DNA from: Actinomyces trachealis
GTDB taxonomy: Bacteria > Actinomycetota > Actinomycetes > Actinomycetales > Actinomycetaceae
Direction: 5' to 3'
DNA length: 64,000 nucleotides
Assembly: GCF_015711475.1 (NCBI RefSeq)
Contig: NZ_CP065027.1
Coordinates: forward strand, 186,001 to 250,000
The notes under the pieces are model-generated. The model had not been told where the DNA came from and ran no database searches. It was given only the letters and a program-made list of their open reading frames with translations. The position numbers were made by a program, and so were the translations under genes. Shown here piece after piece: positions 36,374 through 53,110 of the stretch. Position 1 is the first letter of the stretch. Each line of letters opens with the position of its first letter.

Positions 36374-39300
36374 CTAGTTGCTGGCTTGGCTCTGGTCGGT
36401 GAAATTCGCGACTTGGCAAAGCCGGGGGCGTCTGCCTCGGCGGATCCACCATCCGCGCCCGGGCTTGAGGTGCTCGGGCCGCATGCCGAATACATTGCCT
36501 TCCGAGCGGTCACCATCCATGAGTAGGCAGGTACCACCGGTGTCGCGCAGCGCCTGGAAGGTGGAGTCGAACATGGCGCTCGCGCTTCCGGCAACAGGTC
36601 GGGAGAGGACCACGTTCAGGTTGAGGTCGCGGGCGGAGGGCAGGTAGGGCAGCACCGGTGTGAGGATGCCAGTGCCACCAGCGGAGAGGATCTCGTAGTC
36701 GTCCACAACCAGGACGATCCGGGGGCCCTCAACTGGTTTGCCCTCAGCTAGGGCTTCAGCCCGCTTGGTGAGTTCGGAGCCAATAGCTGTGGACAAGCCC
36801 AGGGCAGTATTTGAGGAAGTCGCGTGCCCACCCAGGTACGCGTCCGGGCAGGCGGAGACCGTGTTGCGACGAACGTCGTACAGTCCGATCACCAGCTCTT
36901 CGGGGGTGTGGCGTTCGATCAGCTGCTCGATCACGCCACGCAGCACCGTGGTCTTCCCGCATCCGGGGTCGCCCAGCACGATCAGGTGGGTGTCCAAGGT
37001 CTGTGGGTCCATGGCTATCGGCTGCATGGTGTCCTGGAACAGGCCTAGCGGCAGCTGGTCCGGCATCTCTTCGCCGTCCGGCAAGGTGGCGGGGTCGAGC
37101 ACCTCGGGCAGCAGGCGGACTGCGGCCGGTGAGGCGCCTGCCCAGGTCTCACTCACACCCAGGGCCAGCTCCTCGACAGCGGGGCCGATCGCCGTCGCCC
37201 CTTCATCCAACACCGGCAGAGCCACATGAGCGAAGAGCTTGTCTGGCCGCAGCACCCGCCCGGGCGTGTCCGCGCGCAGCGTCTGGGAGAGCTTGCGGGC
37301 GATCATAGAGTCGGTTGGGTCGTTCAGGCGCAGCTCCAGGCGGGTGCCGACCAGTGGCTGCTGCGCCATACGCAGGTCGTTGTTGCGGGACAAGGTGGTC
37401 ACCAAGTGCACGCCCAGGCCACCGCCGCGGCGAAGCACCTCGTCCACCAGGTCCTCTAACTCTGAGAAGTCGGCACGCAACAGGCCCAGGCCGTCAATCA
37501 GCAGGACCACGTCCGCGCTGGCGAGTTCAGGGACCCGCCCCTGCGCGTGGAACCCGCGGAGCATTTCCAGGGAATCAATTCGGTAGCGGGACATCACTTC
37601 CTCCCGCAGCGTCAGCATGGCCACCGTTTCCTCTAGCACGCGGCGCATCCGCTCCCGGTCGCCCCTGGTGGCCACGCCACCTACATTTGGCAGGTCGGCG
37701 ATGCGCGAGAGCCCGCCACCAGTGGCGTCCACCCCGTAGAAGGCCAGGCGGGTGGGGGAGATGGTCAGAGCAGCAGCTGCCGTCAGGGTCCATAGGAAGG
37801 TGGTGCGGCCGGACTGGGGCGCACCCAGGATGGAGACGTGCCCGCCCCCGACGGTCAGGTCAAGCTCCCACTGTTCTTGCAACTGGTGGGCTGGATCGTC
37901 AACCAGACCGATAGGCACCCGCAGTCCCTCGCTGTAACGGTCCCGGTGCGGAGCGGACAAGGTGGTTGGGCCGCCAGCAAGCTCGCTGCCAAACATTCCT
38001 GGCAGGGTCAGGCGCCTAGGCAGGGGCTCAAGCCAGACCGGTTGTGGGCGGGTGGCCGCTTTGGCTAGCTGCTCGGAGACGACGTCGATCACCGTGCGCC
38101 GTACCGTGTGCCCCGCTGGTATGGCCTCCTCACCGGATGGGGCTTGGGGGGAGGCGTCTAGCCCGTTGTGCACGGGCAGGAGTAGGGGCTCCTTCAGCTC
38201 GATGTCGTCTGGGAGTGAGTCGTTGGAGAGTTCATCTGCGGGGCAGGAGACGAATCCGGAACGGAACCGGGTGAAGATGCTGGTGTCCACCTTGAGGAAT
38301 CCGTAGCCCGGCGCGGCTGGGAGGTTGAAGGCGTCACCGGAGCCGATCACGGTGGAGGACTCCGCCTCGGTGAAGGTGCGCAGGCAGATGCGGTAGGACA
38401 GGTAGGTGTCCAGGCCGCGCAGCTTGCCACCCTCGATCCGCTGGCTGGACAGGAGCAGGTGCACACCGATTGACCGCCCGATGCGCCCGATGGTCAGCAG
38501 CAGGTCCACAAAGTCTGGGCTCGCAGTGAGTAGCTCACCGAACTCGTCGATGATGACGAACAGGTGCGGCATCGGTGCCAGGCGCGGGTTCTTCTCACGC
38601 AGCTGCCGGTAGTGCGTGATGTCAGGGGAGGAGCCAGCGTCACGCAGCTGCTTTTGACGGCGCACCACCTCCCCCGCGATCGAGGCGCGGGCGCGTTCCA
38701 CCAGGCCGACGTCCTCAGCCAGGTTGTCCATCAGGCCCACGACGTGCGGCAGGTTGGTGAACGGTGCGAAAGCGGCGCCGCCCTTGTAGTCCACGAGGAT
38801 CATGGTGAGGTCCTCGGGGCCGTGCGTGGTGGCCAGGTCGGTGACTAGGGTGCGCAGTAGCTCGGATTTACCGGAGCCGGTGGCACCCACGCATAAGCCA
38901 TGCGGCCCCATGCCCAGCTGGGCGGCCTCTTTGAGGTCCAGGAGCAGGGGGTGGCCTTCGTCGTCGGAGCCGATGGGGACCCGCAGGAAGTCGCGGGGGG
39001 AGCGCGGCGCCCAGGCGCGTTGCACGTTGATCGCTAGTGGGTCCGGCACCCCCAGTAGGTCCTGCAGGGAGGTGGAGGTGGCGGAGTCGTCCATTCGTTC
39101 GGCGGCCCGCCCAAGGCTGTAGGGCGCCAGTGCCCGGCTGATTCCTTCTGTAAGCGCGGGCCCGGCGGCGTCCGGGTGGCAACGCACCAGTGGCCTGGGT
39201 TTTGGGCGTTCACCGGGTGCTGGCGGATCGATGCGCAGATCCTCAACGTCCACGCTGCCGTCCTCACGGATCGTCAGGCGCAGGGCCGGGTCGCTGGGCT

Positions 39301-40378
39301 CGTCCAGCCGGTCGGTGACCAGGTGCAGCTCCGTGATCCCGAGAGCAGCGGCGTTGAGGTTGTTGTCTGGCAGGGACAGGTACTGGGAGGCCCCCGCGCC
39401 CTCGATCACGGCTAGGAGGCGGCAGCCTGTGGGCTTGCTCGGGCGGCCCCCCGTGCCTCGCAAGGCACGAGACGCGATCCGTGAGGCATCCACCAGTTCG
39501 GGACGTAGCACCTCCGATAGTTCCCAGACGTCAGCGGCGGTGCGGCGTCTGGCTACAGGGCCGTCGAATGCGCCGTGAATCCGTAGGTGCGGCAGGCGGG
39601 AGAGGCAGTCCCACTCGGCGGCGTTCTTCAGGTCGTAGGCCAGGGCAATGTGCAGGTCCTCGGGAGCGTGCAGCACAGCTGCCTGCATCAGCAGCACACG
39701 GGCCAAGGCGCGAGTGGCCTCCCGGGAACCGACGACGGACACCGGCCCAGCGCAGTCCAGGTCTAGCACATGGGGGGCGCGGGACAGGATCCGGTGGGCA
39801 TTCGCGATGACCTGGGCCTGCCCCAGCAGGACCGGGTCAACGTCACCGGCGTTGACTTCCTTGGCCATGACGGCTAGCGGCAGCGGCAGGTCAGCGGTGC
39901 CGAGGCGCAGGTGCAGGAAGTCGGCGTCGCTGCGGCGCCTTTCCCAACGCCGCTCCGGAGCGGTTACCAGCCTGGCCAAGGCGTTGATGCTGGGGTGGGT
40001 GCGGGACAGTGCCCGGCGCAAAGTGTCCGCCAGCTTGGTGGCGTTCTCGTCGGCCTCCAGGAGCTGGTCCATGTACTGTTCGCGGCGCTCAGCTTGCGTG
40101 CGTACTGTCGCGGCTCTGCGGGATACCAAGGCAGAGAGCATGCCTACGGTGGTGACTACCATCATGACGGCACCGATCAAGGAGAAGATCGGGTTGGTGC
40201 GCAGCACCGTCATCATCAGCATGGAGGAGCCTGCGCCGACCAGTGGCATGAGCATTTGGAAGGGGAAGCCCTGCTTGGCACCCGTGTCGCCCAGGCGTGG
40301 GGGTGCTGGGACGGTTATCGGATCTGGGGCAGGAACTGGATGAACGATCCTGCCGGGCCGGTGCAGGACCTCGATCAT
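36374..40378 (-). CDS. eccC: Type VII secretion ATPase EccC (FtsK/SpoIIIE family)
   Basis: The 1334-residue motor of a type VII secretion system, fused as a single EccCa-EccCb chain. Two membrane helices lie at about residues 42-85. Three ATPase domains follow, with P-loops GATGSGKSE (about 500), GAPQSGRTT (about 850) and GDPGCGKTT (about 1135). The first also has Walker B LFVIIDEFGELL. The second P-loop has Arg in place of the catalytic Lys, as is common for the less active EccC domains. It drives WXG100 substrates across the membrane. The ATG overlaps the stop of the preceding MinD-like gene by four bases. Confidence 0.92.
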   Translation of the reverse strand: MIEVLHRPGRIVHPVPAPDPITVPAPPRLGDTGAKQGFPFQMLMPLVGAGSSMLMMTVLRTNPIFSLIGAVMMVVTTVGMLSALVSRRAATVRTQAERREQYMDQLLEADENATKLADTLRRALSRTHPSINALARLVTAPERRWERRRSDADFLHLRLGTADLPLPLAVMAKEVNAGDVDPVLLGQAQVIANAHRILSRAPHVLDLDCAGPVSVVGSREATRALARVLLMQAAVLHAPEDLHIALAYDLKNAAEWDCLSRLPHLRIHGAFDGPVARRRTAADVWELSEVLRPELVDASRIASRALRGTGGRPSKPTGCRLLAVIEGAGASQYLSLPDNNLNAAALGITELHLVTDRLDEPSDPALRLTIREDGSVDVEDLRIDPPAPGERPKPRPLVRCHPDAAGPALTEGISRALAPYSLGRAAERMDDSATSTSLQDLLGVPDPLAINVQRAWAPRSPRDFLRVPIGSDDEGHPLLLDLKEAAQLGMGPHGLCVGATGSGKSELLRTLVTDLATTHGPEDLTMILVDYKGGAAFAPFTNLPHVVGLMDNLAEDVGLVERARASIAGEVVRRQKQLRDAGSSPDITHYRQLREKNPRLAPMPHLFVIIDEFGELLTASPDFVDLLLTIGRIGRSIGVHLLLSSQRIEGGKLRGLDTYLSYRICLRTFTEAESSTVIGSGDAFNLPAAPGYGFLKVDTSIFTRFRSGFVSCPADELSNDSLPDDIELKEPLLLPVHNGLDASPQAPSGEEAIPAGHTVRRTVIDVVSEQLAKAATRPQPVWLEPLPRRLTLPGMFGSELAGGPTTLSAPHRDRYSEGLRVPIGLVDDPAHQLQEQWELDLTVGGGHVSILGAPQSGRTTFLWTLTAAAALTISPTRLAFYGVDATGGGLSRIADLPNVGGVATRGDRERMRRVLEETVAMLTLREEVMSRYRIDSLEMLRGFHAQGRVPELASADVVLLIDGLGLLRADFSELEDLVDEVLRRGGGLGVHLVTTLSRNNDLRMAQQPLVGTRLELRLNDPTDSMIARKLSQTLRADTPGRVLRPDKLFAHVALPVLDEGATAIGPAVEELALGVSETWAGASPAAVRLLPEVLDPATLPDGEEMPDQLPLGLFQDTMQPIAMDPQTLDTHLIVLGDPGCGKTTVLRGVIEQLIERHTPEELVIGLYDVRRNTVSACPDAYLGGHATSSNTALGLSTAIGSELTKRAEALAEGKPVEGPRIVLVVDDYEILSAGGTGILTPVLPYLPSARDLNLNVVLSRPVAGSASAMFDSTFQALRDTGGTCLLMDGDRSEGNVFGMRPEHLKPGRGWWIRRGRRPRLCQVANFTDQSQASN

Positions 40379-41235
40379 GCGCGGACCTCGCTTGCAGCCG
40401 CACTCACGATTGCTGCCGCAAGCCGGGCTATGGCGGTGCCTGTGCGCCTGGAGAGCAACCCGGGAGCCTTGGTGTGATATGCGGTGGTTTGAGCTAGGAC
40501 GGTGTCGTATGGAACCAGGTGCTCCTCTGGTTGCAGGCGGGGTACGAGCACGGGGCCAGGTTGCTTAGCGACGACGGCGTGTAGCAGGCGGGGGCGGTGC
40601 GGGGAGCGCAGGCTGGGACCCCGGTTGTCGATCTCGGCCTGCACCTTGCCCAGAAGGTCCCGCCCAGATTCGACGTCGCCTCTGTTTGCGGGGCTGACCA
40701 GCACGATCGCGTGGACCTGGCCCGCGGAGGCTACCAGACTGTTTTGGTCTAGCGGACCTGCGTGGGTGGTGACGGTGTCGTAGAAGCGGAAGAGTTTGGT
40801 GCGGGCGTCGTCCCAGGCGGCCGGGCGTTCCCCGAACCACTCTGGCAGGCGGAGCTGGCCAAGCAGCCCATCCTTTCCGGTGCCTACCAGCGTGTGGGTT
40901 TCGATGGCGCTAGCTGGCGCTGCTGCGCCTTCCACTGTGTGCCAAACGGGGATGCTTTCCTCGGCATTAGGTGAGGCGTCAAGGAGCAGGCCCGGTAGCG
41001 TCCGGCTGCGGGTGAGTATTCCTGCGATTTGGTGGGCGATGGTCCGCGAGCCACTGTGCGGAGCGCTGGGGACGATCAGGCAGCGGCATCCCAGGGGCAC
41101 TGGCCGGTTGAGCTGCTGGGCCAGGTCGGCGGTCTCTGTGCGCCATGAGGCGGCTCCGGTAGCGAAGATGACGGCTGCGTCCAACCAGGGGTGTGGGACC
41201 CGGATAGGTGAGGATGGGCTGGGACCTTTGGGCAT
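40375..41235 (-). CDS. MinD/ParA-like P-loop protein of the T7SS locus
   Basis: A 286-residue protein. Near residue 55 it has LIVPSAPHSGSRTIAHQIA, which resembles a deviant Walker A lacking the expected GK; later strands such as VHAIVLVSPANRGD fit a ParA/MinD Rossmann order. Comparable ATPases accompany ESX loci (EspI-type), but the missing P-loop lysine makes ATP binding doubtful. ATG at 41235 shares its A with the TGA of eccD, and its own TGA overlaps eccC, so the three are translationally coupled. Family assignment is moderate. Confidence 0.6.
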   Translation of the reverse strand: MPKGPSPSSPIRVPHPWLDAAVIFATGAASWRTETADLAQQLNRPVPLGCRCLIVPSAPHSGSRTIAHQIAGILTRSRTLPGLLLDASPNAEESIPVWHTVEGAAAPASAIETHTLVGTGKDGLLGQLRLPEWFGERPAAWDDARTKLFRFYDTVTTHAGPLDQNSLVASAGQVHAIVLVSPANRGDVESGRDLLGKVQAEIDNRGPSLRSPHRPRLLHAVVAKQPGPVLVPRLQPEEHLVPYDTVLAQTTAYHTKAPGLLSRRTGTAIARLAAAIVSAAASEVRA

Positions 41236-42560
41236 CAGAACAACCTCAATAGGTGGTTGAAGGTGCCTTGCATCCCGCACAGCAGGGGCAGGGTGGCGAC
41301 GACGCACAAGGTCTCTAGTCGGTTTCCGATTCGTCTGAGCCGAATACGATTATGGGCTGAGGGGCTGTATAGGCTCACGGAGGCCGCGAGAGCCGCAGCC
41401 GCTACGAGTACGGTAGCGCGCATGGTCTGGTCGGGTACCAGGCTGCTCAATGCCAGGACAGCGGGGATGCTGCTGGCCCAGAGCGCCAGCACCTCCAGCT
41501 TTAAGGGGTATGCGCGGGACCGCAAGACGGTGGCTAGGACGACGGCGATGGCCAATGTGCGCGCCCAGGAGTTTCCTGACATTGCCAGGTGGCGTGTAGA
41601 CCACGCAATCGCTGCCGCGCAAGCCAGTGAGGTTGAGGCTACCGTGTCGTGGGAGCGCAGCAGGGCCAGGTCTACCCGACGGCGTGCGGGGAGCTGGCCT
41701 GCCAGGGCTTCGTCGTCGAGACGGGAGGCACCGGAGACCAGCAGCGCGAACCAGGGCAGTAGGCCAAGTAGGATCAGCACCGCAACCGCGATGAGCCCAG
41801 TGACCAGTTCGACGTCGTGCGTGACCGACTCCAGGATCGCACGCAGGATGATGATTCCTCCAGCGGTCAGTGCACCGTAGGACCAGGCTTCCCTTCTGAC
41901 GCCAACGGCGGTGCAGCTTGCAGCGATCAGTGCTGCAGCTAGTGCCGCGGTGATGCCTTGCGCCGTGTCGGTGCCGGTGGCTAGGGAGTGCAGGCTGGGC
42001 AGGAGTAGCCCGGCTCCCAGGCATTGCAGGAGAATACCGCCCCCGCGCAGGGGCTTGGTATGACGGCTGCGGCCCGCCTCACGCACCATCAGGGCGCCTA
42101 TGAGGATGACCAGTAGGCCAGGCAGTACCTGCAGCCAGGCGGTGGCGGCGTGGAGCTGGGTGCTAAGCAGTGTACGCATGAGGATCGCACCGGACAGCAG
42201 CAGCAGTGTGCCAGTGCCGATCAGACGGTCGGAGGGCTTCCACCGCCAGGGGTGGGAGTCGGTGGCGTCAGTGAGCGCACCTGACAGGTCGGAGATCTCC
42301 GCTGGTGGAGGCACCTCGTCGTCTGGCAGGAGGCGCAACAACTCGCCGTCTGGCACCTGCTGGGCGGCTAGGTCCTGCTCCAGGTCGATGATCGTGCCGT
42401 CGGGGCGTACCAGGCGCAGTGGCGGGAGTTCGTCCCCGTCCGTGACTCCCAACAGCTGCAGGATGTAGGGGTACTGGGTGCCGACGGCCTCGTCCGAGGG
42501 CATGACGATCTCCGCCCGCCGGTTGGGGGCAGCGATCGTCACTCTGGTGTAGGGGATCAT
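41235..42560 (-). CDS. eccD: Type VII secretion integral membrane protein EccD
   Basis: A 441-residue channel subunit. An N-terminal ubiquitin-like YukD domain (about residues 1-80, TRVTIAAPNRRAEIVMPSDE and DELPPLRLVRPDGTIID) is followed by about eleven hydrophobic helices from residue 120 to the end, the EccD arrangement. The ATG at 42560 overlaps the end of the small membrane gene upstream by four bases. Together with EccC it identifies the locus as an actinobacterial T7SS. Confidence 0.88.
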   Translation of the reverse strand: MIPYTRVTIAAPNRRAEIVMPSDEAVGTQYPYILQLLGVTDGDELPPLRLVRPDGTIIDLEQDLAAQQVPDGELLRLLPDDEVPPPAEISDLSGALTDATDSHPWRWKPSDRLIGTGTLLLLSGAILMRTLLSTQLHAATAWLQVLPGLLVILIGALMVREAGRSRHTKPLRGGGILLQCLGAGLLLPSLHSLATGTDTAQGITAALAAALIAASCTAVGVRREAWSYGALTAGGIIILRAILESVTHDVELVTGLIAVAVLILLGLLPWFALLVSGASRLDDEALAGQLPARRRVDLALLRSHDTVASTSLACAAAIAWSTRHLAMSGNSWARTLAIAVVLATVLRSRAYPLKLEVLALWASSIPAVLALSSLVPDQTMRATVLVAAAALAASVSLYSPSAHNRIRLRRIGNRLETLCVVATLPLLCGMQGTFNHLLRLF

Positions 42561-42814
42561 GGTGCGCTTCCGGTCGTGGCCCCTGTGGTCTGGTTGGGCG
42601 TCATGCCGCCCTTCGCGGCCGGCAGGTGGGTGCTCACGAAGGAGTAGCCGACGCAGGCCGCGCACATGAGGGCAGCGGTTACGAGTGAGGCGAGGACCTT
42701 CGGGAAGACCTTGCGGTTGCGGCCGGGCATGGAGCCGCGTTCCAGCGCGGACAGGAGGCGCTCGCGGTGGACTCTGGTGGCGTCAAGGACTGCTGAGTCC
42801 GTGTCACGGGGCAT
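42557..42814 (-). CDS. Small single-pass membrane protein in the T7SS operon
   Basis: An 85-residue protein with a basic cytoplasmic N terminus (RVHRERLLSALERG), one membrane helix (VLASLVTAALMCAACVGYSFV, about residues 41-61) and a short Thr/Gly-rich outer tail. It lies 3 bases after the DUF6177-like gene and overlaps eccD by 4 bases, so it is a genuine, translationally coupled member of the operon. It does not resemble EccB or EccE, which are larger. Confidence 0.72.
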   Translation of the reverse strand: MPRDTDSAVLDATRVHRERLLSALERGSMPGRNRKVFPKVLASLVTAALMCAACVGYSFVSTHLPAAKGGMTPNQTTGATTGSAP

Positions 42815-42817
42815 GGC

Positions 42818-43882
42818 TCAGGCCTTCTGGCTGTTGGGTAGGGTCGGTTCGTTTGCGGGCTGCAGGATGCGGGTGACTTTGCCGGTGTCGCCTTCAAGCG
42901 TCTGCACGAGTGCGGACAGGGCCGACCAGTCTCCCACGGTGGGTGAGTCCAAGGGCACCAGAATGCCGCGGCGCCGTCCGCGCCCAGTCAGGGAGCCACC
43001 GTGCTGGTTGATGATCTGGGCGGGGTCCACCCCGAGCTGCTTGATGCCGGGGGCGCCGATGAGTATCGCGAGGGGGGTTGGTGCCATGCGGGTCGTTGTG
43101 GGGATGGAGCCGTCGGGGTGTCCGAAGGTGCGGAATGCCAGGGCGAACTGTGGCTTGAGTTCGGAGCTGACAGCGTCCAGGAATGCGCAGACGTGGTTTG
43201 CCCACTCGCTCACCGGCAGACTTGGTAACGCGAGGTTGACCTCCAGGTACTCTTCCAGTCCGTTGGAGGTGCGGGCCACCTGCATGATTCCGGTGGCTAC
43301 GGAGCCGTCCTGTGCGTGTCCGGCCAGGGTGAAGAAGGTTTCTGGCATGTTCTTGCGCGCGAGCTTGGTGAGTTCGCGCCGGTCCCAGAACGCGCCAGCT
43401 GGCTCGTAGCGGCCCCAGCCGAGTACGGTGTCTTGGGGCATGAGGTGCTGGCACATGAGTTCGGCTGCCCGTCCGAGTACCGTGCCGTGTCGGGTCGGGT
43501 GGTAGATGGAGACTGACAGGGTGATGAGGGGGACGTGGGTCTGTGGCTTGAAGCGCCGTTCTGACAGGATGGTTCGTGGGGTGTTGGGATTCCGGACGAT
43601 TGAGTCAATATCCTGGGACCAGCGGCCATTGCGGGCATCGCGGTAGCCGGATTCCTCGCGTACCAGCACGTAGCAGCCCGCTGACTCCGTGACCAGGTCA
43701 AACACTGGTGTCATGCGGGCACCATCGGGGATGGTGATGACGATCTGCTTCTTCGTGGTGGTGCGCACGCTGTAGATAAGGTCTGACAACCCTTCGCTGA
43801 GATAGGCGCAGGGGTCGTCCAGGTTGGTGACCGTGGCTAGGTCGGCCACCTTCATGTCGAAGAATGGGTGCGGGTACGGCAT
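42818..43882 (-). CDS. DUF6177-like protein of T7SS loci
   Basis: A 354-residue soluble protein without signal or membrane segments. Sequence order and context (PTRHGTVLGRAAELMCQHLMPQ, PAGAFWDRRELTKLAR, then a C-terminal RRRGILVPLDSPTVGDWSALSALVQTL) resemble DUF6177 proteins that accompany actinobacterial T7SS genes. No enzymatic motif is clear. Its ribosome site (GGAG) lies within the last codons of the FHA/RDD gene just upstream, indicating coupled translation. Family name given from memory of similar loci; function unknown. Confidence 0.65.
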   Translation of the reverse strand: MPYPHPFFDMKVADLATVTNLDDPCAYLSEGLSDLIYSVRTTTKKQIVITIPDGARMTPVFDLVTESAGCYVLVREESGYRDARNGRWSQDIDSIVRNPNTPRTILSERRFKPQTHVPLITLSVSIYHPTRHGTVLGRAAELMCQHLMPQDTVLGWGRYEPAGAFWDRRELTKLARKNMPETFFTLAGHAQDGSVATGIMQVARTSNGLEEYLEVNLALPSLPVSEWANHVCAFLDAVSSELKPQFALAFRTFGHPDGSIPTTTRMAPTPLAILIGAPGIKQLGVDPAQIINQHGGSLTGRGRRRGILVPLDSPTVGDWSALSALVQTLEGDTGKVTRILQPANEPTLPNSQKA

Positions 43883-45034: not shown

Positions 45035-45254
45035 TGGGTGAGCCTCCTCAGGGACTGGTACTCAGGCGTGTTGCTCCCGCAGGTCAGGGGCGCGGGTGTG
45101 GACATCATAGGCCGGACCTGTTGATCGCGTCTGTGAGAGGGATCCCGAGGGAATGGGTACTTTTCACCTAGCGGATATCTGACTGGCGGTGGTTATGATT
45201 CGGTTATCTGTCCCGTACCTGGCGGGGCCTGATCAGTGTGTCTGGGAGGCACGA

Positions 45255-45590
45255 ATGAAGTTCGACATGGGTGCCAGTACTCTGGGTGACCTGACCAAGC
45301 AGACCTCTTCGTCAAGTGACGACCTGGGTGCGCAGGTGCGGCAGCTGGCGGTTGCTGGCGAGCCGCTGGAGGGGAAGTTCAACGGTGCTGGCCGCGGTGA
45401 GTGGGACCGGTTCAAGTCCCGTGTGGATGAGGTCGCAACGGAGCTGAGTTCCTCTCTGGCGAGCGTCCTCAGCGGCATCGTGGGGATGGACCGGGCTTTC
45501 ACACAGGGTGAGCAGGAGATGGTCGATGTGACCCGCGCAGCTGCCTCAAGCTCTGACTTTGACGCCGCACGGTTTGGCGGCCAGGCCTGA
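45255..45590 (+). CDS. WXG100-type secreted protein (first of three)
   Basis: A 111-residue, largely alpha-helical protein of ESAT-6/CFP-10 size. Helix 1 covers about residues 8-45. A G-AGRGEWDRF turn at about 50-58 stands where the WXG motif would be, and helix 2 runs to about 95. Such proteins leave the cell as helical-hairpin dimers through the EccC motor. ATG at 45255 has GGGAGG five bases upstream; upstream in-frame codons lack a ribosome site. It opens the rightward secreted-substrate unit, divergent from the secretion-machine operon. No YxxxD/E tail motif is seen. Confidence 0.75.
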   Translation: MKFDMGASTLGDLTKQTSSSSDDLGAQVRQLAVAGEPLEGKFNGAGRGEWDRFKSRVDEVATELSSSLASVLSGIVGMDRAFTQGEQEMVDVTRAAASSSDFDAARFGGQA

Positions 45591-45629
45591 GGGTCGAGTT
45601 TCACATCACGTCTTTTAGGAGGATTTGCT

Positions 45630-45941
45630 ATGGCTAACAATTCCGAGATGCGTTCTTATGACATTGGTGCGTCCGAGTCTGCGCAGGCGAACTTTGAAAG
45701 CGTGGCTTCGCGGCTGGAAGCGCTGATTTCGCAGCGTGACTCTGACGTTCGCAACGCGATGTCACAGTACCAGGCCGATGGAGTCTCTGACGAGTACCAG
45801 GCTAAGGAAGCGCGCTGGAACAAGGCTGCCACCGAGGTCCGCAGCATCATCACCACTCTGCGCAACTCTATGCAGAGCACCGATGAGACTGCCTCGACCG
45901 CGCTGACTCAGGCCAAGTCTGCCGTCGACCAGATGGGCTGA
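45630..45941 (+). CDS. WXG100-type secreted protein (second of three)
   Basis: A 103-residue helical hairpin protein. The helices flank residues about 48-62 (YQADGVSDEYQAKEARW), where the WXG turn would lie, though the canonical W-x-G is replaced. Its ribosome site, AGGAGG 7 bases before the ATG, is among the strongest in the window, suggesting high expression as for other ESX substrates. It lies 39 bases after the first WXG100-like gene and 4 bases before the third, so the three are likely co-transcribed and could pair as heterodimers. Confidence 0.8.
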   Translation: MANNSEMRSYDIGASESAQANFESVASRLEALISQRDSDVRNAMSQYQADGVSDEYQAKEARWNKAATEVRSIITTLRNSMQSTDETASTALTQAKSAVDQMG

Positions 45942-45945
45942 AGTC

Positions 45946-46263
45946 GTGAGCGGCTGGGATATTGATCCTAATGGCGTGTCTGGTGTGCTGTCGGGGCTTA
46001 AGACCGAGGTAGATGACCATCTCAGTCCGGGCCTGACGGGTTGCGTTGACGCGCTGAACGGCGTCATAACAGCTACGAACGGTGAGGGCAGAGCGATGCT
46101 GGTTGCGAGCGCGGTCAGTGAGTGGTCCTCAACGCATGAGGCTGATTTCACCGGGATCGGCAATAGGATTGGGAATATCACGTCCAACACGATCCAAGCT
46201 GTTGTTGCTTACCAGCAGCATGATGAGTCTGCTGCCTTGGAGTTCCAGCGCAACGCAAAGTGA
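45946..46263 (+). CDS. WXG100-size protein with C-terminal YxxxD motif (DUF6507-like)
   Basis: A 105-residue protein starting at GTG four bases after the previous stop. It is helical, with WDIDPNGVSGVLSGLKTEVDDHL at the N terminus resembling DUF6507 proteins found in T7SS loci. Near the end it carries YQQHD (residues 89-93), fitting the YxxxD/E general secretion signal that directs the bearing partner of an Esx pair to EccC. This makes it the likely signal-bearing partner for one of the two preceding proteins. Confidence 0.72.
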   Translation: MSGWDIDPNGVSGVLSGLKTEVDDHLSPGLTGCVDALNGVITATNGEGRAMLVASAVSEWSSTHEADFTGIGNRIGNITSNTIQAVVAYQQHDESAALEFQRNAK

Positions 46264-46328: not shown

Positions 46329-49300
46329 GTGAGTATTGATACCAGTAAGTTGCCTGCGCTCAACCTTGATGTTGCTTCGCTGCGCACGAATGCCTCCGAT
46401 CTCAAAACGAAGGCAGGAGATGTCCGGACCTCGGGTGCGTCGCTCAATACGACGTGGGGCGGCATGTCATCATGCTACAAGGCCCCTGAGCAGGAGACCT
46501 TGTACGGGGCGATGAAGCCGGTAGAGACTGACTGTGACTCACTTGCCGATAACCTGGAGTCGATCGCCGGAGCGTTGAGCACCTTCGCGGATACGGCAGA
46601 TCAGATCAAGAAGGACTCAGAGAACCTCAAGAGCCGCGCGGATTCTTTCTTGACCTCGATCAGTGGTGACGCTGAGTGGCAGTACGATCAGGACAAGGTT
46701 GACAAGCACAACGGGTTCCTGAACGAGGCGAATGCGTTGCAGATTCGCATGTGGGACGCGGAGCGTACCTGTGCGAATGCGATCCGCGCTCTGGATTGTC
46801 TGGTTGCATACCATGCTGATCCGACGAGCGATGATGACCAGTTCGCCTACGGGCTGTCAAAGATCCCGGATGGTACTGCGGGGTTGCCGTGGGGTGAGCC
46901 TGTTGAGCGGCAGGACCATTGCCCGAAGAAGGCTGGTGTTTCCATCAAACGTGCTGTCTGGGATGACTTCTGCCTAGGTACCGTCAACGGCTTGACCAAT
47001 CTGGTCGGATTCAAGGTTGGTGGACCTGACTGGGGCTTCAGCTGGGAGACTTTTTCCAACACTTGGAGCGGCCTGTCAACGCTGGTGGGTGCCGGTTATG
47101 ACGAGTACGGCAACTTCACAGGGTTTAGCTGGAGCAATGCGGGGAACTCCTGGAAGGGGTTGGTTAAAGGCTGCCTTCACTGGGACGAGTGGAAAACTGA
47201 TCCGTTGCGGGCGCTTACTGGAACCGTGTTGGATGTCGGCTCCTTGCTGATCCCAGTGGTGGGAGAGGCGTCCAAGGTGCAGAAGTTCGGCAAGGCTGGT
47301 TCGGCTTTGGAGAAGGTTGGTAAGGCTGCACAGGTTGCTGACAAGGTTTTGTCATTCATGGACCCGCTGGGGACTTTGGCTGGAAAAGCGGTCAGCAAGG
47401 TCGCTGGGCCTGCTGTTGACTTAGTCAAGAATGCCCTGAAGATCGACTTCAGCCTCCCAGACCTGATTGGTAAGTGGACTAAGGCTGATGTATCTGTCCA
47501 TCCTGAGACGCGTACTGTCTCCGGGACGGCAGGTGCCAGGGTGCCGGAGGCTTCCACCTCTGTCGGCGCGGGATCGTCGGCTGCGGGCGACAACATCATT
47601 GGGTCCGAGATGAAGGAACGTTTTGCTGAAGCGAAGGATCCTTCGAGTGCTCACAAGGCTGATTTCGAGAACAGGCCGGAGTATTCCTCATCTCGCGAGG
47701 TGCGGGAGCCTGTTCCGGTTGGTGCATCGACCGCTGACCGTGTGGTCGATTCTGGTACGCATGCGAAGGCTGGCGGTAACTCCGCCTCTGAGCCCGCGCA
47801 CGCGGCTGCCGGTCGTGCGCACACGGATGCTTCAGCGCATGGCGCGACCGGAGGGCACGCCAGCCACAGCTCCGGCGGTGCCAACCACGGTGCGGGCAGT
47901 GACGTTGGTGCCGGTGGTGACCACCATGGCGCGGGTAGTGAGTCCGTCGGTCACAGTGGTGAGCCCGTAACCTCGGGCGGGGGTCACGACGCAGGTCCGG
48001 TCGCCGAACGTGGTGGCTCGGGTACCGGTGCAGCCGACGGCACTGCTGGGGGCTCGTCGCACGGCCACGCTGGCGACGGCCACACTGGCGGTGACGCTGG
48101 AGGCCACACTGGCGGCGAAGCTGGAGGTCGCTCTGGCGGTGACGCTGGAGGCCACGCGGACAACGCAGGTCATGGGGATTCCGGCAATGCTGCGCGCCGT
48201 GACGCCGATGCCTCTCAGCACCATGAGGGCGACGCGTCCGACAAGGGCCACCCTCAGCAAGGCGCGCACCACAGTGCCGATCATGCGGACGATGCTGCCG
48301 CCCACGGCTCCGGTGATGGCCACGCTAGCGGAGGCTCCGGCCACGATTTCGGTGATGGTTACGGTGCTGGTGATGGTCACGCAAATGGAGGCTCCGACCA
48401 CGGGGCTGGTGACGGTGACAGGCCGCTCGATGGCGGAGATGACGTCACGACGTCCCCTGCTGATCCGCGGAACTATAAGATGGAAGATGGGACAAGCTAC
48501 GACACCCAATTCGCTCCCGAGCAGGTGCGACAAGAGTTGAGCACCTACGAGAGACTCAAGGCAGACCTGGCTGCCAATGATGTGCGAATGGCGGATGGTT
48601 CGGAGGCCACTGTAGAGAAGGTTCGTGAGGTGGCAGGTAAGTCCCTCAATGAACTGACCGTCGGCGACGCGAAGCTCCTGCGAAAAGTAAACGACATACG
48701 AGCTTTCTATACGCCGGACGTGCTACAGAAGGTCGTGGAGCCGACGCAGCTGCTGAATGACTTTACGCCTGACGAGCTTGACGAACTGGTTTCCCGGGGA
48801 GTGCTTGAAGAGGATTCTGTGAAGGCCTGGCGCGATGCCGAGAAGAAGGCTACGTATCCGACTTCAAGAATGTCGGGTAGTGTCGCCGGATCGCCAGACG
48901 CCAATGTGTCACGTTCAGAAGTGGATCTCAATAGCAGTGACACCGGTCCCATGAAAGCTGACGACGGTCGAGATATATACGGGCTCGACTATCCTGACTC
49001 GAACCATCGCCCAAGAACTCCAAAGCTAACAGGTGGTTTAGAGCGTCACTCCCAGATTGAGGTGCGAATGGGTAGTGACCCGTTCCGGGGTAAGGTGTAT
49101 GTTCCTGATGCGGACATGCGTACCGTGATGGATGAGGCGGCCAATTATGTGGACCTGGACGCTATGCCGCAGGACGCAAACCTCTGGGAGCAGTTGCCGC
49201 AAAGCGTTCAGGACAGGCTCAAGGAGGGTGGTGAATCTAGTATTGGTCGGGCCGTCGATCCGGATAATCCTTGGCGTGGCACAGGTTTTGCGGGAAGTGT

Positions 49301-49460
49301 GAATAGTCCGAATATTGCGACTCCTGAGTTGATGATCGATGTCGATGACTACGTGGACATGGCGGATGTGGGTCCCGCTGAGATGTGGGTGCGTGGCTAT
49401 GATGGTAGTCAGGAGCTGCTCGCTGTGTTCAAGGAAGGTAAGTGGGTGCTGGCGCGATGA
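46329..49460 (+). CDS. Large WXG-fused T7SS effector, candidate polymorphic toxin
   Basis: A 1043-residue protein in modular form. Residues 1-130 form a helical WXG-like domain with TTWGGMSSC (Trp43). Residues about 140-400 form a pre-toxin region with hydrophobic, Lys-rich VGEASKVQKFGKAGSALEKVGKAA, reminiscent of helical pre-toxin domains. Residues about 478-705 are a Gly/His/Asp/Ser-rich linker. Residues about 710-1043 are a globular C-terminal domain with lower GC than the N-terminal part and no recognised catalytic motif. GTG start, no signal peptide. It follows the three WXG100 genes and overlaps the next gene by four bases, the classic toxin-immunity arrangement. Toxicity itself is inferred. 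Confidence 0.75.
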   Translation: MSIDTSKLPALNLDVASLRTNASDLKTKAGDVRTSGASLNTTWGGMSSCYKAPEQETLYGAMKPVETDCDSLADNLESIAGALSTFADTADQIKKDSENLKSRADSFLTSISGDAEWQYDQDKVDKHNGFLNEANALQIRMWDAERTCANAIRALDCLVAYHADPTSDDDQFAYGLSKIPDGTAGLPWGEPVERQDHCPKKAGVSIKRAVWDDFCLGTVNGLTNLVGFKVGGPDWGFSWETFSNTWSGLSTLVGAGYDEYGNFTGFSWSNAGNSWKGLVKGCLHWDEWKTDPLRALTGTVLDVGSLLIPVVGEASKVQKFGKAGSALEKVGKAAQVADKVLSFMDPLGTLAGKAVSKVAGPAVDLVKNALKIDFSLPDLIGKWTKADVSVHPETRTVSGTAGARVPEASTSVGAGSSAAGDNIIGSEMKERFAEAKDPSSAHKADFENRPEYSSSREVREPVPVGASTADRVVDSGTHAKAGGNSASEPAHAAAGRAHTDASAHGATGGHASHSSGGANHGAGSDVGAGGDHHGAGSESVGHSGEPVTSGGGHDAGPVAERGGSGTGAADGTAGGSSHGHAGDGHTGGDAGGHTGGEAGGRSGGDAGGHADNAGHGDSGNAARRDADASQHHEGDASDKGHPQQGAHHSADHADDAAAHGSGDGHASGGSGHDFGDGYGAGDGHANGGSDHGAGDGDRPLDGGDDVTTSPADPRNYKMEDGTSYDTQFAPEQVRQELSTYERLKADLAANDVRMADGSEATVEKVREVAGKSLNELTVGDAKLLRKVNDIRAFYTPDVLQKVVEPTQLLNDFTPDELDELVSRGVLEEDSVKAWRDAEKKATYPTSRMSGSVAGSPDANVSRSEVDLNSSDTGPMKADDGRDIYGLDYPDSNHRPRTPKLTGGLERHSQIEVRMGSDPFRGKVYVPDADMRTVMDEAANYVDLDAMPQDANLWEQLPQSVQDRLKEGGESSIGRAVDPDNPWRGTGFAGSVNSPNIATPELMIDVDDYVDMADVGPAEMWVRGYDGSQELLAVFKEGKWVLAR
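48084..48155 (+). repeat. Three 24-bp tandem repeats in the toxin linker
   Basis: Units at 48084-48107, 48108-48131 and 48132-48155 share the pattern actggcggtgacgctggagg with a few substitutions and encode TGGDAGGH, TGGEAGGR and SGGDAGGH. They keep the frame, so copy number could vary without breaking the protein. Confidence 0.75.
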
Positions 49461-50590
49461 GTGGTGCGTATGCGTCTTTGACTGGTCCGGTGTGGGCGGG
49501 GGAGTATGTGTTCTCTGTTTCTGATATTACTGGGGGGTCTGCGTTCCTGAAGAGGTTGCTGCCGGTTGGGGTGGTGGTGCGGCATGTGCTAGACGATGGG
49601 CGTGGGACGTTTATGGTGCCGGATCAGGTGGCTTGTCCGTCGGGGTTCGTGGGTGACAGTGCGCGGGGTGCTTGGGTGCTGGGGGCGCCGGAGGGAGCGA
49701 TGGCTCACGGTTTTCGGGCGTGTGCGTCGGCGGTGGTAAATGGTGTGGGTGTGGAGGTGCTTGAGGTTTGGGGTGAGCGGGCGCGGGTGCGTGAACTCGC
49801 AGGTGATGACTCAGGGCAGTGGGTTGGTTTGGGTGAGTTGGGGCGGGTGGTGGTTGATCAGACCGCCTTCTTGTCTTGGGACTTTAGGGGAGGTCGGACG
49901 GACGGTTCGAGTAGTCCGCTTAAAAGCCGCCGTTTTCGGCGGGTGTTTCCGGTGGGGTTTGATGCTTGGTCTTCTCCGGAGCGGGTTGGGGGTGTTGGTG
50001 TGGATGTGTGGTCTTCGCATTGGGCTAGTCCGGTTCCGGCGTCGGGTAGCAGTTTTATGGTTTTGGGTGGGGTGCCTTATCCGAAGACCTATGTGATGGA
50101 TCGTGATGCACGGTATGACGGGCCGGCATCCATGGTGTATTTGGATGCGTGGTGTCAGGTGCCGGTTGGTGTGGGTGTGGGGAGGCCGTGGCAAGGTGAG
50201 CTGTGTGGCTCCGATATTTTAAACCGTGACGCTGAGGGGTTTGTTGGGGTTGATTGTGTAAGGGCTATGTGGGGTGGGCGTGCGGTTGAGGTGGTGTACG
50301 TGGCTTATTCCTATGCTTATGTTGTTGCGTTGGAGCGGCCGGAGGCGTGGAGGTCGCGGAAGTCGCTGTGGTCTTTGGATGAGTTGGAGGTTATGGAGGG
50401 GCCGGTGCGGCTTGATGAGTTGGAGGATGTGCGTTTCAGCGTGTACGTGAGGCGTCATCCTGAGGCTGGGTCGTGGTCCTTCTTGAATGCTTGGGGCTTG
50501 CCGGGTGATCTTGAGGGTAGTGCGGAGGCGCGCCTGGAGCGGGGGTGCTGGCCTGCCTGGCCGGTGACCCATGAGATCGGCCCCATCTAA
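49457..50590 (+). CDS. Candidate immunity protein, copy 1
   Basis: A 377-residue protein of unrecognised family whose ATG overlaps the TGA of the large effector (ATGA). It is rich in Val, Gly, Trp and Asp, predicted cytoplasmic, with no signal or membrane helix. Immediate translational coupling to a presumed toxin is the reason for calling it immunity. It is nearly identical to the 51824 gene. Relative to that copy it has Lys32, Arg33, Met82, Ala83, His84 and Asp142. Its coding strand is markedly G+T-rich and C-poor compared with all housekeeping genes here, which suggests horizontal acquisition. Confidence 0.65.
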   Translation: MSGAYASLTGPVWAGEYVFSVSDITGGSAFLKRLLPVGVVVRHVLDDGRGTFMVPDQVACPSGFVGDSARGAWVLGAPEGAMAHGFRACASAVVNGVGVEVLEVWGERARVRELAGDDSGQWVGLGELGRVVVDQTAFLSWDFRGGRTDGSSSPLKSRRFRRVFPVGFDAWSSPERVGGVGVDVWSSHWASPVPASGSSFMVLGGVPYPKTYVMDRDARYDGPASMVYLDAWCQVPVGVGVGRPWQGELCGSDILNRDAEGFVGVDCVRAMWGGRAVEVVYVAYSYAYVVALERPEAWRSRKSLWSLDELEVMEGPVRLDELEDVRFSVYVRRHPEAGSWSFLNAWGLPGDLEGSAEARLERGCWPAWPVTHEIGPI

Positions 50591-50640
50591 GCGCGCTGGG
50601 GTCTATAATTAACACATTACCTACCGGGCTGGGGCGCCCT
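49460..50640 (+). repeat. 1181-bp direct repeat, copy 1
   Basis: Identical to 51881-53061 by eye except for eight bases in three clusters inside the coding region. It begins at the last base of the toxin stop codon, covers the whole immunity gene and ends 50 bases past its stop, including a TATAAT hexamer (first copy near 50604-50609). Offset between copies is 2421 bases. Confidence 0.93.
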
Positions 50641-50670
50641 TGGGGCCCTGGCAGTAAAGGAGCTGACGCT

Positions 50671-51573
50671 ATGCGGTGGTTGAGGAAACTGGTCAACGAG
50701 GAGATGCTGCGCCGGTACCTGAGCGGTGAGAACCTCGTGCACGGGTTCGCGGTTGACTCGGGTTCGCTGGGACTTAATGAGACCTCTGGTGAGATTTTCA
50801 AGGCGCTCTTTATGGAACGGCCTGTGGACGAGTCTGCCGTCGTGGATGAGGTAGCCACCCTGTTGTTCCCGCTCTACCCGACTGACACCGCTGTTCCGGC
50901 TATGGGTGGGAACACCCCAGAACAGTTGGCCATTACGGGTGGGGATTTTCTTCAGCCTGCGCCATTCGATGGCCGCGGCATGGTCAAGCTGCCTGCCGAC
51001 CCGATCGCTACTCACCTGTACGTGGAGCCCACGATGCTGCGCGCGGGAGCTTTCCTTCTTAAACACACGCCGAAGGGTGGCTACACGGAGATGGCACACT
51101 ACTTCGGCCCAAGGCTTGGCTGGGGGGTGCCTAATGGCTTACCCGCTGAGCGGCGTATTCCGCGCATCGGCCCAAACTCCCTGTTCGGACCGCACCTTCA
51201 GCTCAAGGGGGAGACGGGTTTGCGTCCTGCTGACCTGGACGTCGGGGAGGATGGCTCTTTGCAGGGGGCGTATGTCCTGGCGTACCAGGACGGTGATGTG
51301 AAGGGTACCCAGATCGGTCTGGAGGACGTCGCGGAGGCGGGCTTCCTGCGGGCACGCACCACCTGGAACGGTTTGCCGGTGCTGCTGGTGGGCAAGGTGA
51401 GTGGTGAGACTGTTGGCTTCCGCGTGCTGTGCCTGTCCCATGACGCCTATGCCGCCCAGAACGCTGGATTCAGAATGGTTGAGGCCGGCGTGTACGAGGC
51501 GGTCATTCCCGCCAGTCAGATCGGCCAGCCGACCTTCACCCTGTCCACCCCACCGAGCTGGCCCCACAACTGA
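50671..51573 (+). CDS. Hypothetical protein within the immunity array
   Basis: A 300-residue protein with AAAGGAG 9 bases before its ATG. There is no signal peptide; the N terminus is basic (MRWLRKLVNEEMLRRYL) and the rest is a mix of beta-type sequence. No domain is recognised. It lies between the two immunity copies and has the GC-rich codon use of the host genes, unlike those copies. A diverged remnant of its 3' end follows immunity copy 2, so it probably belonged to a repeated two-gene cassette. It could be a second immunity or adaptor protein; function unknown. Confidence 0.6.
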   Translation: MRWLRKLVNEEMLRRYLSGENLVHGFAVDSGSLGLNETSGEIFKALFMERPVDESAVVDEVATLLFPLYPTDTAVPAMGGNTPEQLAITGGDFLQPAPFDGRGMVKLPADPIATHLYVEPTMLRAGAFLLKHTPKGGYTEMAHYFGPRLGWGVPNGLPAERRIPRIGPNSLFGPHLQLKGETGLRPADLDVGEDGSLQGAYVLAYQDGDVKGTQIGLEDVAEAGFLRARTTWNGLPVLLVGKVSGETVGFRVLCLSHDAYAAQNAGFRMVEAGVYEAVIPASQIGQPTFTLSTPPSWPHN

Positions 51574-51612
51574 GTACAGACGCCCACCGTTAAGAATCAG
51601 ATTCTCACCTAG

Positions 51613-51823
51613 TTCTTCGCGCTGTTTGAGTCTGGGGATGAGCAGAAGCTTTTCTGGGGTAAGTCATCTGCTGATGTATGCCTTGGCCAATACTGAGCTG
51701 GCTGCGCGGTACCCGATTGTGGAGTTCCTGATCGGGAGGGACTACCTGGTGGGTCCGCCTGGTTCAGAGGGGCACACGTGTTTGCACGCGCTGTTCTGGC
51801 CGCATGTATGGAGGAATACCTGA
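51613..51823 (+). pseudogene. Frameshifted ankyrin-like fragment
   Basis: One frame reads FFALFESGDEQKLFWGK to about 51663, and the next frame continues HLLMYALANTELAARYPIVEF, then GSEGHTCLHALFW, to a TGA at 51821-51823. The second part has the shape of ankyrin repeats (A-x-x-P-I-V-E-F-L-I and G-H-T-x-L-H). A single-base shift near 51660-51665 joins them, and there is no complete start. Ankyrin proteins occur as immunity proteins in polymorphic toxin arrays, so this is probably a decayed orphan immunity gene. Its stop is directly followed by the ATG of immunity copy 2. Confidence 0.5.
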
Positions 51824-53011
51824 ATGACCATCCCACCAAGTGACAGCGCCAACGCTGCTGGTTCCAACGCCAGCCGCGCAAGTGGTGCGTATGCGTCTTT
51901 GACTGGTCCGGTGTGGGCGGGGGAGTATGTGTTCTCTGTTTCTGATATTACTGGGGGGTCTGCGTTCCTGAGGGAGTTGCTGCCGGTTGGGGTGGTGGTG
52001 CGGCATGTGCTAGACGATGGGCGTGGGACGTTTATGGTGCCGGATCAGGTGGCTTGTCCGTCGGGGTTCGTGGGTGACAGTGCGCGGGGTGCTTGGGTGC
52101 TGGGGGCGCCGGAGGGAGCGCTGGTTGACGGTTTTCGGGCGTGTGCGTCGGCGGTGGTAAATGGTGTGGGTGTGGAGGTGCTTGAGGTTTGGGGTGAGCG
52201 GGCGCGGGTGCGTGAACTCGCAGGTGATGACTCAGGGCAGTGGGTTGGTTTGGGTGAGTTGGGGCGGGTGGTGGTTGATCAGACCGCCTTCTTGTCTTGG
52301 AAATTTAGGGGAGGTCGGACGGACGGTTCGAGTAGTCCGCTTAAAAGCCGCCGTTTTCGGCGGGTGTTTCCGGTGGGGTTTGATGCTTGGTCTTCTCCGG
52401 AGCGGGTTGGGGGTGTTGGTGTGGATGTGTGGTCTTCGCATTGGGCTAGTCCGGTTCCGGCGTCGGGTAGCAGTTTTATGGTTTTGGGTGGGGTGCCTTA
52501 TCCGAAGACCTATGTGATGGATCGTGATGCACGGTATGACGGGCCGGCATCCATGGTGTATTTGGATGCGTGGTGTCAGGTGCCGGTTGGTGTGGGTGTG
52601 GGGAGGCCGTGGCAAGGTGAGCTGTGTGGCTCCGATATTTTAAACCGTGACGCTGAGGGGTTTGTTGGGGTTGATTGTGTAAGGGCTATGTGGGGTGGGC
52701 GTGCGGTTGAGGTGGTGTACGTGGCTTATTCCTATGCTTATGTTGTTGCGTTGGAGCGGCCGGAGGCGTGGAGGTCGCGGAAGTCGCTGTGGTCTTTGGA
52801 TGAGTTGGAGGTTATGGAGGGGCCGGTGCGGCTTGATGAGTTGGAGGATGTGCGTTTCAGCGTGTACGTGAGGCGTCATCCTGAGGCTGGGTCGTGGTCC
52901 TTCTTGAATGCTTGGGGCTTGCCGGGTGATCTTGAGGGTAGTGCGGAGGCGCGCCTGGAGCGGGGGTGCTGGCCTGCCTGGCCGGTGACCCATGAGATCG
53001 GCCCCATCTAA
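51824..53011 (+). CDS. Candidate immunity protein, copy 2
   Basis: A 395-residue duplicate of the 49457 product, with an unrelated 20-residue Ser/Ala/Asn-rich N-terminal extension (MTIPPSDSANAAGSNASRA) fused at the repeat boundary. From SGAYASL onward the two differ at six residues only: Arg, Glu, Leu, Val, Asp and Lys here for Lys32, Arg33, Met82, Ala83, His84 and Asp142 of copy 1. No adjacent toxin domain accompanies it, so it looks like an orphan immunity gene kept against a related toxin of another strain, or a reserve for a replaced toxin tip. Same G+T-rich composition. Confidence 0.6.
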   Translation: MTIPPSDSANAAGSNASRASGAYASLTGPVWAGEYVFSVSDITGGSAFLRELLPVGVVVRHVLDDGRGTFMVPDQVACPSGFVGDSARGAWVLGAPEGALVDGFRACASAVVNGVGVEVLEVWGERARVRELAGDDSGQWVGLGELGRVVVDQTAFLSWKFRGGRTDGSSSPLKSRRFRRVFPVGFDAWSSPERVGGVGVDVWSSHWASPVPASGSSFMVLGGVPYPKTYVMDRDARYDGPASMVYLDAWCQVPVGVGVGRPWQGELCGSDILNRDAEGFVGVDCVRAMWGGRAVEVVYVAYSYAYVVALERPEAWRSRKSLWSLDELEVMEGPVRLDELEDVRFSVYVRRHPEAGSWSFLNAWGLPGDLEGSAEARLERGCWPAWPVTHEIGPI

Positions 53012-53061
53012 GCGCGCTGGGGTCTATAATTAACACATTACCTACCGGGCTGGGGCGCCCT
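51881..53061 (+). repeat. 1181-bp direct repeat, copy 2
   Basis: Second copy of 49460-50640. Similarity stops abruptly at 53061; the sequence after it instead matches, at lower identity, the 3' end of the 50671 gene. Confidence 0.93.
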
Positions 53062-53110
53062 AACCACCCCACCGAACTGGCCCCAAAACCGAGCACAGAC
53101 GTCCACCGCA
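53058..53110 (+). pseudogene. Diverged remnant of the 3' end of a 50671-like gene
   Basis: Aligning this stretch with 51538-51590 gives about 44 of 52 matching bases, covering the codons for STPPSWPHN, the stop region and 20 bases beyond. The rest of the gene is missing, so the cassette copy was deleted up to the repeat edge. Confidence 0.65.

Follow-up and report, generated by a model that had tools for sequence, protein, structure and literature searches.

How does a pair of gene copies come to be identical at every base except those that change the protein? The question is raised by a 64,000-bp stretch of the Actinomyces trachealis genome (assembly GCF_015711475.1, contig NZ_CP065027.1, positions 186,001 to 250,000; hereafter the window), in which the gene of a polymorphic toxin with a predicted C-terminal toxin domain (toxC) is followed by an immunity-like gene (copy 1), a gene without assigned family (gene D) and a second immunity-like gene (copy 2), in a type VII secretion system (T7SS) locus. 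Base changes were found to have occurred in both copies in each of three short patches of codons. The explanation we favour, and consider fairly probable from the sequences, is that copy 1 would be the immunity protein for the upstream toxC, copy 2 a recent second copy of it, and both would have been selected at the three patches for toxin recognition.

Differences between the two copies

Compared base by base at an offset of 2421, the two direct repeats (Table 1) differ at eight of their 1181 bp. In copy-1 coordinates the mismatches stand at 49551, 49553 and 49554, at 49700, 49704 and 49706, and at 49880 and 49882, forming three clusters that span 4, 7 and 3 nt and affect six codons. The codons of copy 1 and copy 2, in copy-1 numbering, read AAG/AGG (K32R) and AGG/GAG (R33E) in patch 1, ATG/CTG (M82L), GCT/GTT (A83V) and CAC/GAC (H84D) in patch 2, and GAC/AAA (D142K) in patch 3, and the charges at the patches are K/R, H and D in copy 1 against R/E, D and K in copy 2. 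Over the 376 shared codons, all eight changes are non-synonymous (845.3 sites) and none is synonymous (282.7 sites), so that the ratio of non-synonymous to synonymous substitution rates (dN/dS) is undefined; no silent or intergenic difference appeared in the base-by-base comparison, which included the 50 bp past the stop codon. Both open reading frames (ORFs) are intact, at 377 and 395 amino acids (aa). The original prediction, which had described two 1181-bp repeats with eight differences in three clusters, all altering the protein and none silent or intergenic, is borne out by this pairwise comparison.

The absence of silent changes and the clustering differ in weight. Eight missense changes out of eight would arise by chance with P 0.03-0.05 under random substitution, depending on transition bias and with the 50 bp downstream counted; zero silent change has P 0.10 for coding sites alone at equal rates, and the chance of an all-missense outcome rises to about 0.3 if three mutational events occurred rather than eight. 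Since the missense-only excess is weak, it is the clustering that carries the case: none of 200,000 random placements of eight substitutions gave at least five adjacent gaps of at most 4 nt.

Polarity of the changes

The sister species (G049) has a single full-length orthologue, whose protein is 87% identical and carries R32 and R33, M82, V83 and R84, and N142 at the patch residues. As its base equals that of one of the two copies at all eight sites, the derived state can be assigned by parsimony. With G049 as outgroup, copy 1 is derived at 49551, 49704 and 49880, one change per patch, and copy 2 at 49553, 49554, 49700, 49706 and 49882, with two, two and one changes per patch. The copy-2 changes lie 2-4 nt from the nearest copy-1 change; the probability that all would fall within 4 nt, if placed at random over the 1181 bp, is about 6e-9 for five changes and 1e-5 for three events, the 4-nt limit having been chosen post hoc from the data.

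Because each patch was altered in both copies, a single multinucleotide mutation per patch cannot explain the pattern; either selection must have acted at these spots, or each of them must be a strong hot spot of mutation. Changes at the same spots in both copies are best read as diversifying selection on the immunity protein. Selection on three patches had been proposed in the original prediction, and the finding that both copies changed in every patch strengthens that proposal; it holds for the patches and not for the gene as a whole, which a dN/dS test with the orthologue, also proposed there, indicates to be constrained overall (0.40 against G049). The coincidence of the patches with residues that differ between G049 and copy 1 was set aside as support: four of the six patch residues differ (random relocation p 0.010, 0.010 and 0.050 at tolerances of 0, 1 and 2; block tests p 0.004-0.017), but the test is partly circular, since any residue at which the two copies disagree is bound to set at least one of them apart from G049.

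The mechanism that we propose has copy 1 binding and blocking the C-terminus of the resident toxin, while copy 2 would be a second immunity gene in a downstream island of remnants, where it would have arrived when this gene was recently duplicated or transferred. After separation, selection on toxin recognition would have changed both copies at the three patches only, and these would belong to the toxin-recognition surface. Copy 1 may be matched to the resident toxin and copy 2 to a variant carried by competitors, or the reverse; the charge difference between the patches would be as expected if the copies matched different toxin surfaces. The sequences, the order of the genes, the polarised changes and the cross-species linkage of toxin domain, immunity-like gene and gene D are observed directly; neutralisation, a toxin-binding role of the patches and the ecological role of copy 2 are what we infer.

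The toxin locus and a probable exchange module

Copy 1 had been called immunity-like, and its overlap with the toxin gene in a T7SS locus agrees with that designation. The T7SS machinery genes are present and adjoin the toxin locus upstream on the opposite strand, and the three small genes before the toxin gene are its probable secretion partners. The N-terminus of the toxin matches PF06013 with 16.7 bits (cut-off 27.3) and TIGR03930 with 22.2 bits (cut-off 44.85), both sub-threshold, and no known family was found for toxC. Short repeats were seen at 48078-48168 within the toxin linker; the A. bovis linker is long there, of the KPEAE type and very different.

Table 1. Features of the toxin and immunity locus and its surroundings, in window coordinates.
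Feature	Position	Strand	Remarks
Repeat unit, copy 1	49460..50640	+	1181 bp, base comparison
Repeat unit, copy 2	51881..53061	+	1181 bp, base comparison
Patch 1, copy 1	49551..49554	+	Codons 32-33; copy 2 at 51972-51975
Patch 2, copy 1	49700..49706	+	Codons 82-84; copy 2 at 52121-52127
Patch 3, copy 1	49880..49882	+	Codon 142; copy 2 at 52301-52303
Polymorphic toxin gene, 1043 aa	46329..49460	+	WXG100-like N-terminus, Gly/His-rich low-complexity linker, predicted C-terminal toxin domain
toxC, predicted C-terminal toxin domain, 343 aa	48429..49457	+	From sequence; conserved upstream of copy-1 relatives
Copy 1, probable cognate immunity gene, 377 aa	49457..50590	+	ATG overlaps the toxin TGA stop (ATGA)
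Gene D, 300 aa, no family assigned	50671..51573	+	Also after the immunity-like gene in G049, A. bovis, A. gerencseriae and G136
Ankyrin-like fragment, 54 aa	51659..51823	+	G049 has a full-length relative at another site, next to a GH-E nuclease toxin gene
Copy 2, second immunity-like gene, 395 aa	51824..53011	+	19 other N-terminal residues replace Met1
Remnant resembling the 3' end of gene D	53058..53108	+	51 bp, 86% identical to 51539-51589
Three small genes before the toxin	45189..46263	+	133 aa without match; ESAT6_3 family; DUF6507
FtsK/SpoIIIE ATPase, read as EccC-like	36377-40378	-	T7SS gene
EccD	41238-42665	-	T7SS gene
DUF6177	42821-43882	-	T7SS region 36377..43882

The GC content of the toxin N-terminus (0.564), toxC (0.556) and copy 1 (0.605) is lower than that of the window (0.662). 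The synonymous divergence (dS) from G049 is 0.21 for toxC and 0.19 for copy 1, against 0.42-0.88 for six other genes or gene parts (the ESAT6-like gene, DUF6507, the toxin N-terminus, gene D, VIT1 and the next gene); the whole-toxin value of 0.465 was left out of the comparison as it contains toxC. The low dS common to toxC and copy 1 points to exchange between species, in which the two were probably transferred as one module.

Gene D is directly followed by VIT1 in G049, whereas in the window an insert with copy 2 lies between the two. The insert appears to be a small island made up of remnants of genes. Its ankyrin matches fall slightly under the Pfam cut-offs, and copy 2 has a ribosome-binding-like GGAGGA 8 nt upstream of its ATG.

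Relatives of the copies and linkage to the toxin domain

The family survey covered 213 genomes, among them A. bovis (G004) and A. gerencseriae (G011) from the same genus as the window. A toxC homologue is present in four of these genomes, A. trachealis itself counted, and in each a relative of copy 1 comes directly after it. The order toxC, immunity-like gene, gene D is shared by the window, G049, A. bovis and G136, which belongs to another genus; the middle gene in G136 encodes 138 aa and matches copy-1 residues 50-127 by profile (hhalign E 3e-6, probability 88%), with gene D next. By sequence, relatives of copy 1 were found in 7 of the 213 genomes, four of which (G011, G015, G019 and G034) are without toxC.

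A profile search across the order matched three of 396 genomes, with at most four candidates scored per genome, and missed the G136 relative; the match in G278 was dropped because it overlaps a gene read as ATP-synthase. In four places without toxC (L023-L026), distant relatives of copy 1 follow a gene called at about 260-500 aa, near a gene that reads as glycosyltransferase-like; the one such partner gene scanned had no Pfam match above cut-off. An 807-residue ORF in G015:C22 (L027, 706-3129) appears by eye to join several copy-1-like units to a YezG-resembling segment; it has no Pfam match and was not used. Also left unused was a 53-residue remnant in G049 (L020, 8007-8159), 53% identical to copy-1 residues 127-179, which lies far from the locus and has one internal stop. 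Relatives of gene D are present in 43 of the 213 genomes; three of the six loci viewed have a gene read as adenylosuccinate lyase within about 6 kb, and one relative shows a weak YezG-like match (E 0.2, sub-cut-off).

Non-identical paralogues occur at the toxin locus twice, as the two copies in the window and as a tandem pair that follows toxC in A. bovis. In the A. bovis pair 299 codons are identical, while 50 codon differences are missense and 36 silent; between the variable blocks stand stretches of 40, 37, 36 and 30 codons without any difference. The summed length of these four longest runs was reached in none of 20,000 shuffles. By the same sum the silent differences taken alone are patchy too, but their longest run is not significant (P 0.06). 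This signal, obtained from run-length shuffles, is conversion-like: such a mosaic is what gene conversion with retained variable blocks would give. The window copies have no breakpoint within the repeat. The broken start of a third immunity-like copy was seen after the second copy in A. bovis (L021, 8023-8143, minus strand), so copy number varies in the array. In A. gerencseriae the gene next to gene D is a fusion of two units, and toxC is absent.

Structure prediction

AlphaFold2 models from six sequences were of medium to low confidence, with a mean predicted local distance difference test (pLDDT) score of 59 and a predicted template modelling (pTM) score of 0.56. In blocks of ten residues, pLDDT averages 61-79 for residues 11-130 and 57 for 131-150. 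Of two apparent units in the protein, the first holds all three patches. Strands 81-94 and 129-142 are of equal length in the secondary-structure string, and residues 82-84 would face 140-142 if these strands paired in antiparallel fashion. Of the single surface patch that the original prediction had in view, this strand-register argument would support the proximity of 82-84 to 142 only. KOW, Tudor and MBT barrels, which we take to be SH3-like folds, are among the top-ranking fold matches, all of which are weak. The two-unit reading has two grounds, a weak profile match between the units (E 8e-4, probability 24%) and the single-unit relative in G136.

A wider reading is put forward tentatively, as possible and not probable: the copies may represent an undescribed actinobacterial immunity family, possibly built of SH3-like units, in which toxin specificity is retuned through a few small hot patches. 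Duplicates would be kept or made identical elsewhere and pushed independently at the three patches, with the six residues acting as a specificity code.

Discussion

Several observations weigh against selection for toxin recognition at the patches, or against the immunity assignment itself. The missense excess is by itself weak evidence, and G049 is the sole close outgroup. The relatives in G034, G019, G011:C13 and G015:C34 (40-42% identity) are away from the toxC context, and no other tested gene of the locus, toxC included, was found around them; with relatives in contexts without toxC, the family is not toxin-linked everywhere. Neither copy has a known family: searches gave no match in Pfam at E<=1, NCBIfam, PADLOC or the PDB sequences, and the original statement that the family was not recognised stands with regard to Pfam and NCBIfam. 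EsaG is a member of the YezG-like family, and neither copy had a profile match to the YezG-like immunity family PF04634 (Pfam, E<=1). The variable sites of A. bovis overlap the window patches partially, without reaching significance (p 0.49, 0.28 and 0.11 at 0, 1 and 2 residues; block tests p 0.12-0.45), and the differences between the two halves of the A. gerencseriae gene do not coincide with the patches (p 0.24-0.78). Among nine relatives, columns 83 and 142 are of below-average variability (percentiles 25 and 35), whereas columns 32, 33 and 82 belong to the most variable ones and 84 exceeds most.

Other explanations account for parts of the pattern. The original prediction had gene conversion keeping old paralogues identical, with selection removing conversions across the patches. 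The diverged gene D remnant and the ankyrin-like fragment that flank copy 2 hint that the island is older and that copy 2 was written into it, and the A. bovis mosaic, patchy also in its silent changes, fits such a process; in the window, however, no silent change stands beside any patch, so that conversion is indistinguishable from a recent copy, and around patches of 3-7 bases conversion tracts would have to stop at both edges of every patch. A recent duplication would equally leave the 282.7 synonymous sites without a silent change, and it suffices, so conversion is not needed for the window copies; the data do not require it, and we regard it as rather unlikely. Copy 2 could instead be the allele of another strain gained by recombination, the eight differences being standing allelic variation. 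The gene-D-like tail after copy 2, just 86% identical to the resident one, and the apparent exchange of toxC and copy 1 between species speak for a transfer, but full identity outside the patches, including 50 intergenic bp, would demand a very close donor, and we think this origin of the differences unlikely.

If copy 2 were simply redundant, a recent duplication followed by drift or relaxed constraint might suffice, the clusters being a few multinucleotide mutations and the lack of silent changes a matter of chance. The changes number only eight, the chance values given above are not extreme for them, and the copies are young by their want of silent divergence. Yet every patch was altered on both branches, which one multinucleotide event per patch cannot yield; no direct or inverted match of at least 8 bases covering a whole patch variant was found within 700 bp; and both ORFs are intact, all of which makes drift improbable. 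The paired changes might also be compensatory inside the protein and unconnected with toxin binding. Residues 33 and 142 show a charge swap (R/D in copy 1, E/K in copy 2), and the equal-length strands would, if paired, bring 82-84 near 142, with 33 not placed near it; G049, however, combines R33 with N142, and compensation leaves the changes in both copies and the turnover of six residues unexplained, so we hold it to be very unlikely. Short reads can mis-phase 1181-bp repeats, but a protein search of the whole genome, a single 2.53-Mb contig, found exactly two copies with different flanks, the frames are intact and random or silent errors are lacking; an assembly artefact is hardly credible. 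Selection at the three patches for toxin recognition remains the explanation we favour.

The pair is a natural experiment, in which repeat-wide identity except for six residues lets the specificity-deciding residues be tested directly. No description of the copy-1 protein family was found in literature searches. The process itself is already known; it is the protein family and the actinobacterial setting that appear new with respect to Pfam, NCBIfam, PADLOC and the PDB sequences.

Comparison with known systems

In the arrays of esaG and tipC immunity genes of the firmicute type VIIb secretion system (T7SSb), paralogues recombine, and the authors speculate that variable regions set toxin specificity (Garrett et al., 2022, PMC9484751). 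The likeness lies in non-identical immunity paralogues of T7SS toxins and, to judge from the A. bovis mosaic, may extend to conserved blocks between variable blocks and to recombination between paralogues; the difference is that those genes belong to another protein family and to firmicutes, whereas the window pair is actinobacterial and differs by eight missense bases only, polarised to both copies. A search by word start in the main text of that article gave no 'gene conversion', 'positive selection' or 'synonymous', but its Discussion mentions diversifying selection for tsaI.

Arrays of type VI secretion system (T6SS) immunity genes in Vibrio cholerae have been explained by effector displacement and horizontal gain, duplication being weighed as an alternative against which phylogenies are set, according to the sections available (Kirchberger et al., 2017, PMC5361080). 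They resemble the window in their downstream island of orphan immunity genes and remnants, and differ from it in the explanation proposed for their origin.

For the orphan I2 genes of Bacteroidales, associated with the T6SS and with recombinase-associated acquired interbacterial defence (rAID) systems, a preprint reports that non-synonymous changes gather at the predicted toxin interface (Azhieh et al., 2025, preprint, PMC12247911). Extra immunity copies changing at a predicted interface, with charged residues important, are the common ground; that work concerns the T6SS, SUKH domains and time tracking in metagenomes, and the part seen contains no duplicate pair differing in three patches only. 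Judged by these papers, the window pair would extend a mode of immunity-gene evolution described in firmicutes and Bacteroidales to an actinobacterial T7SS with an unclassified family.

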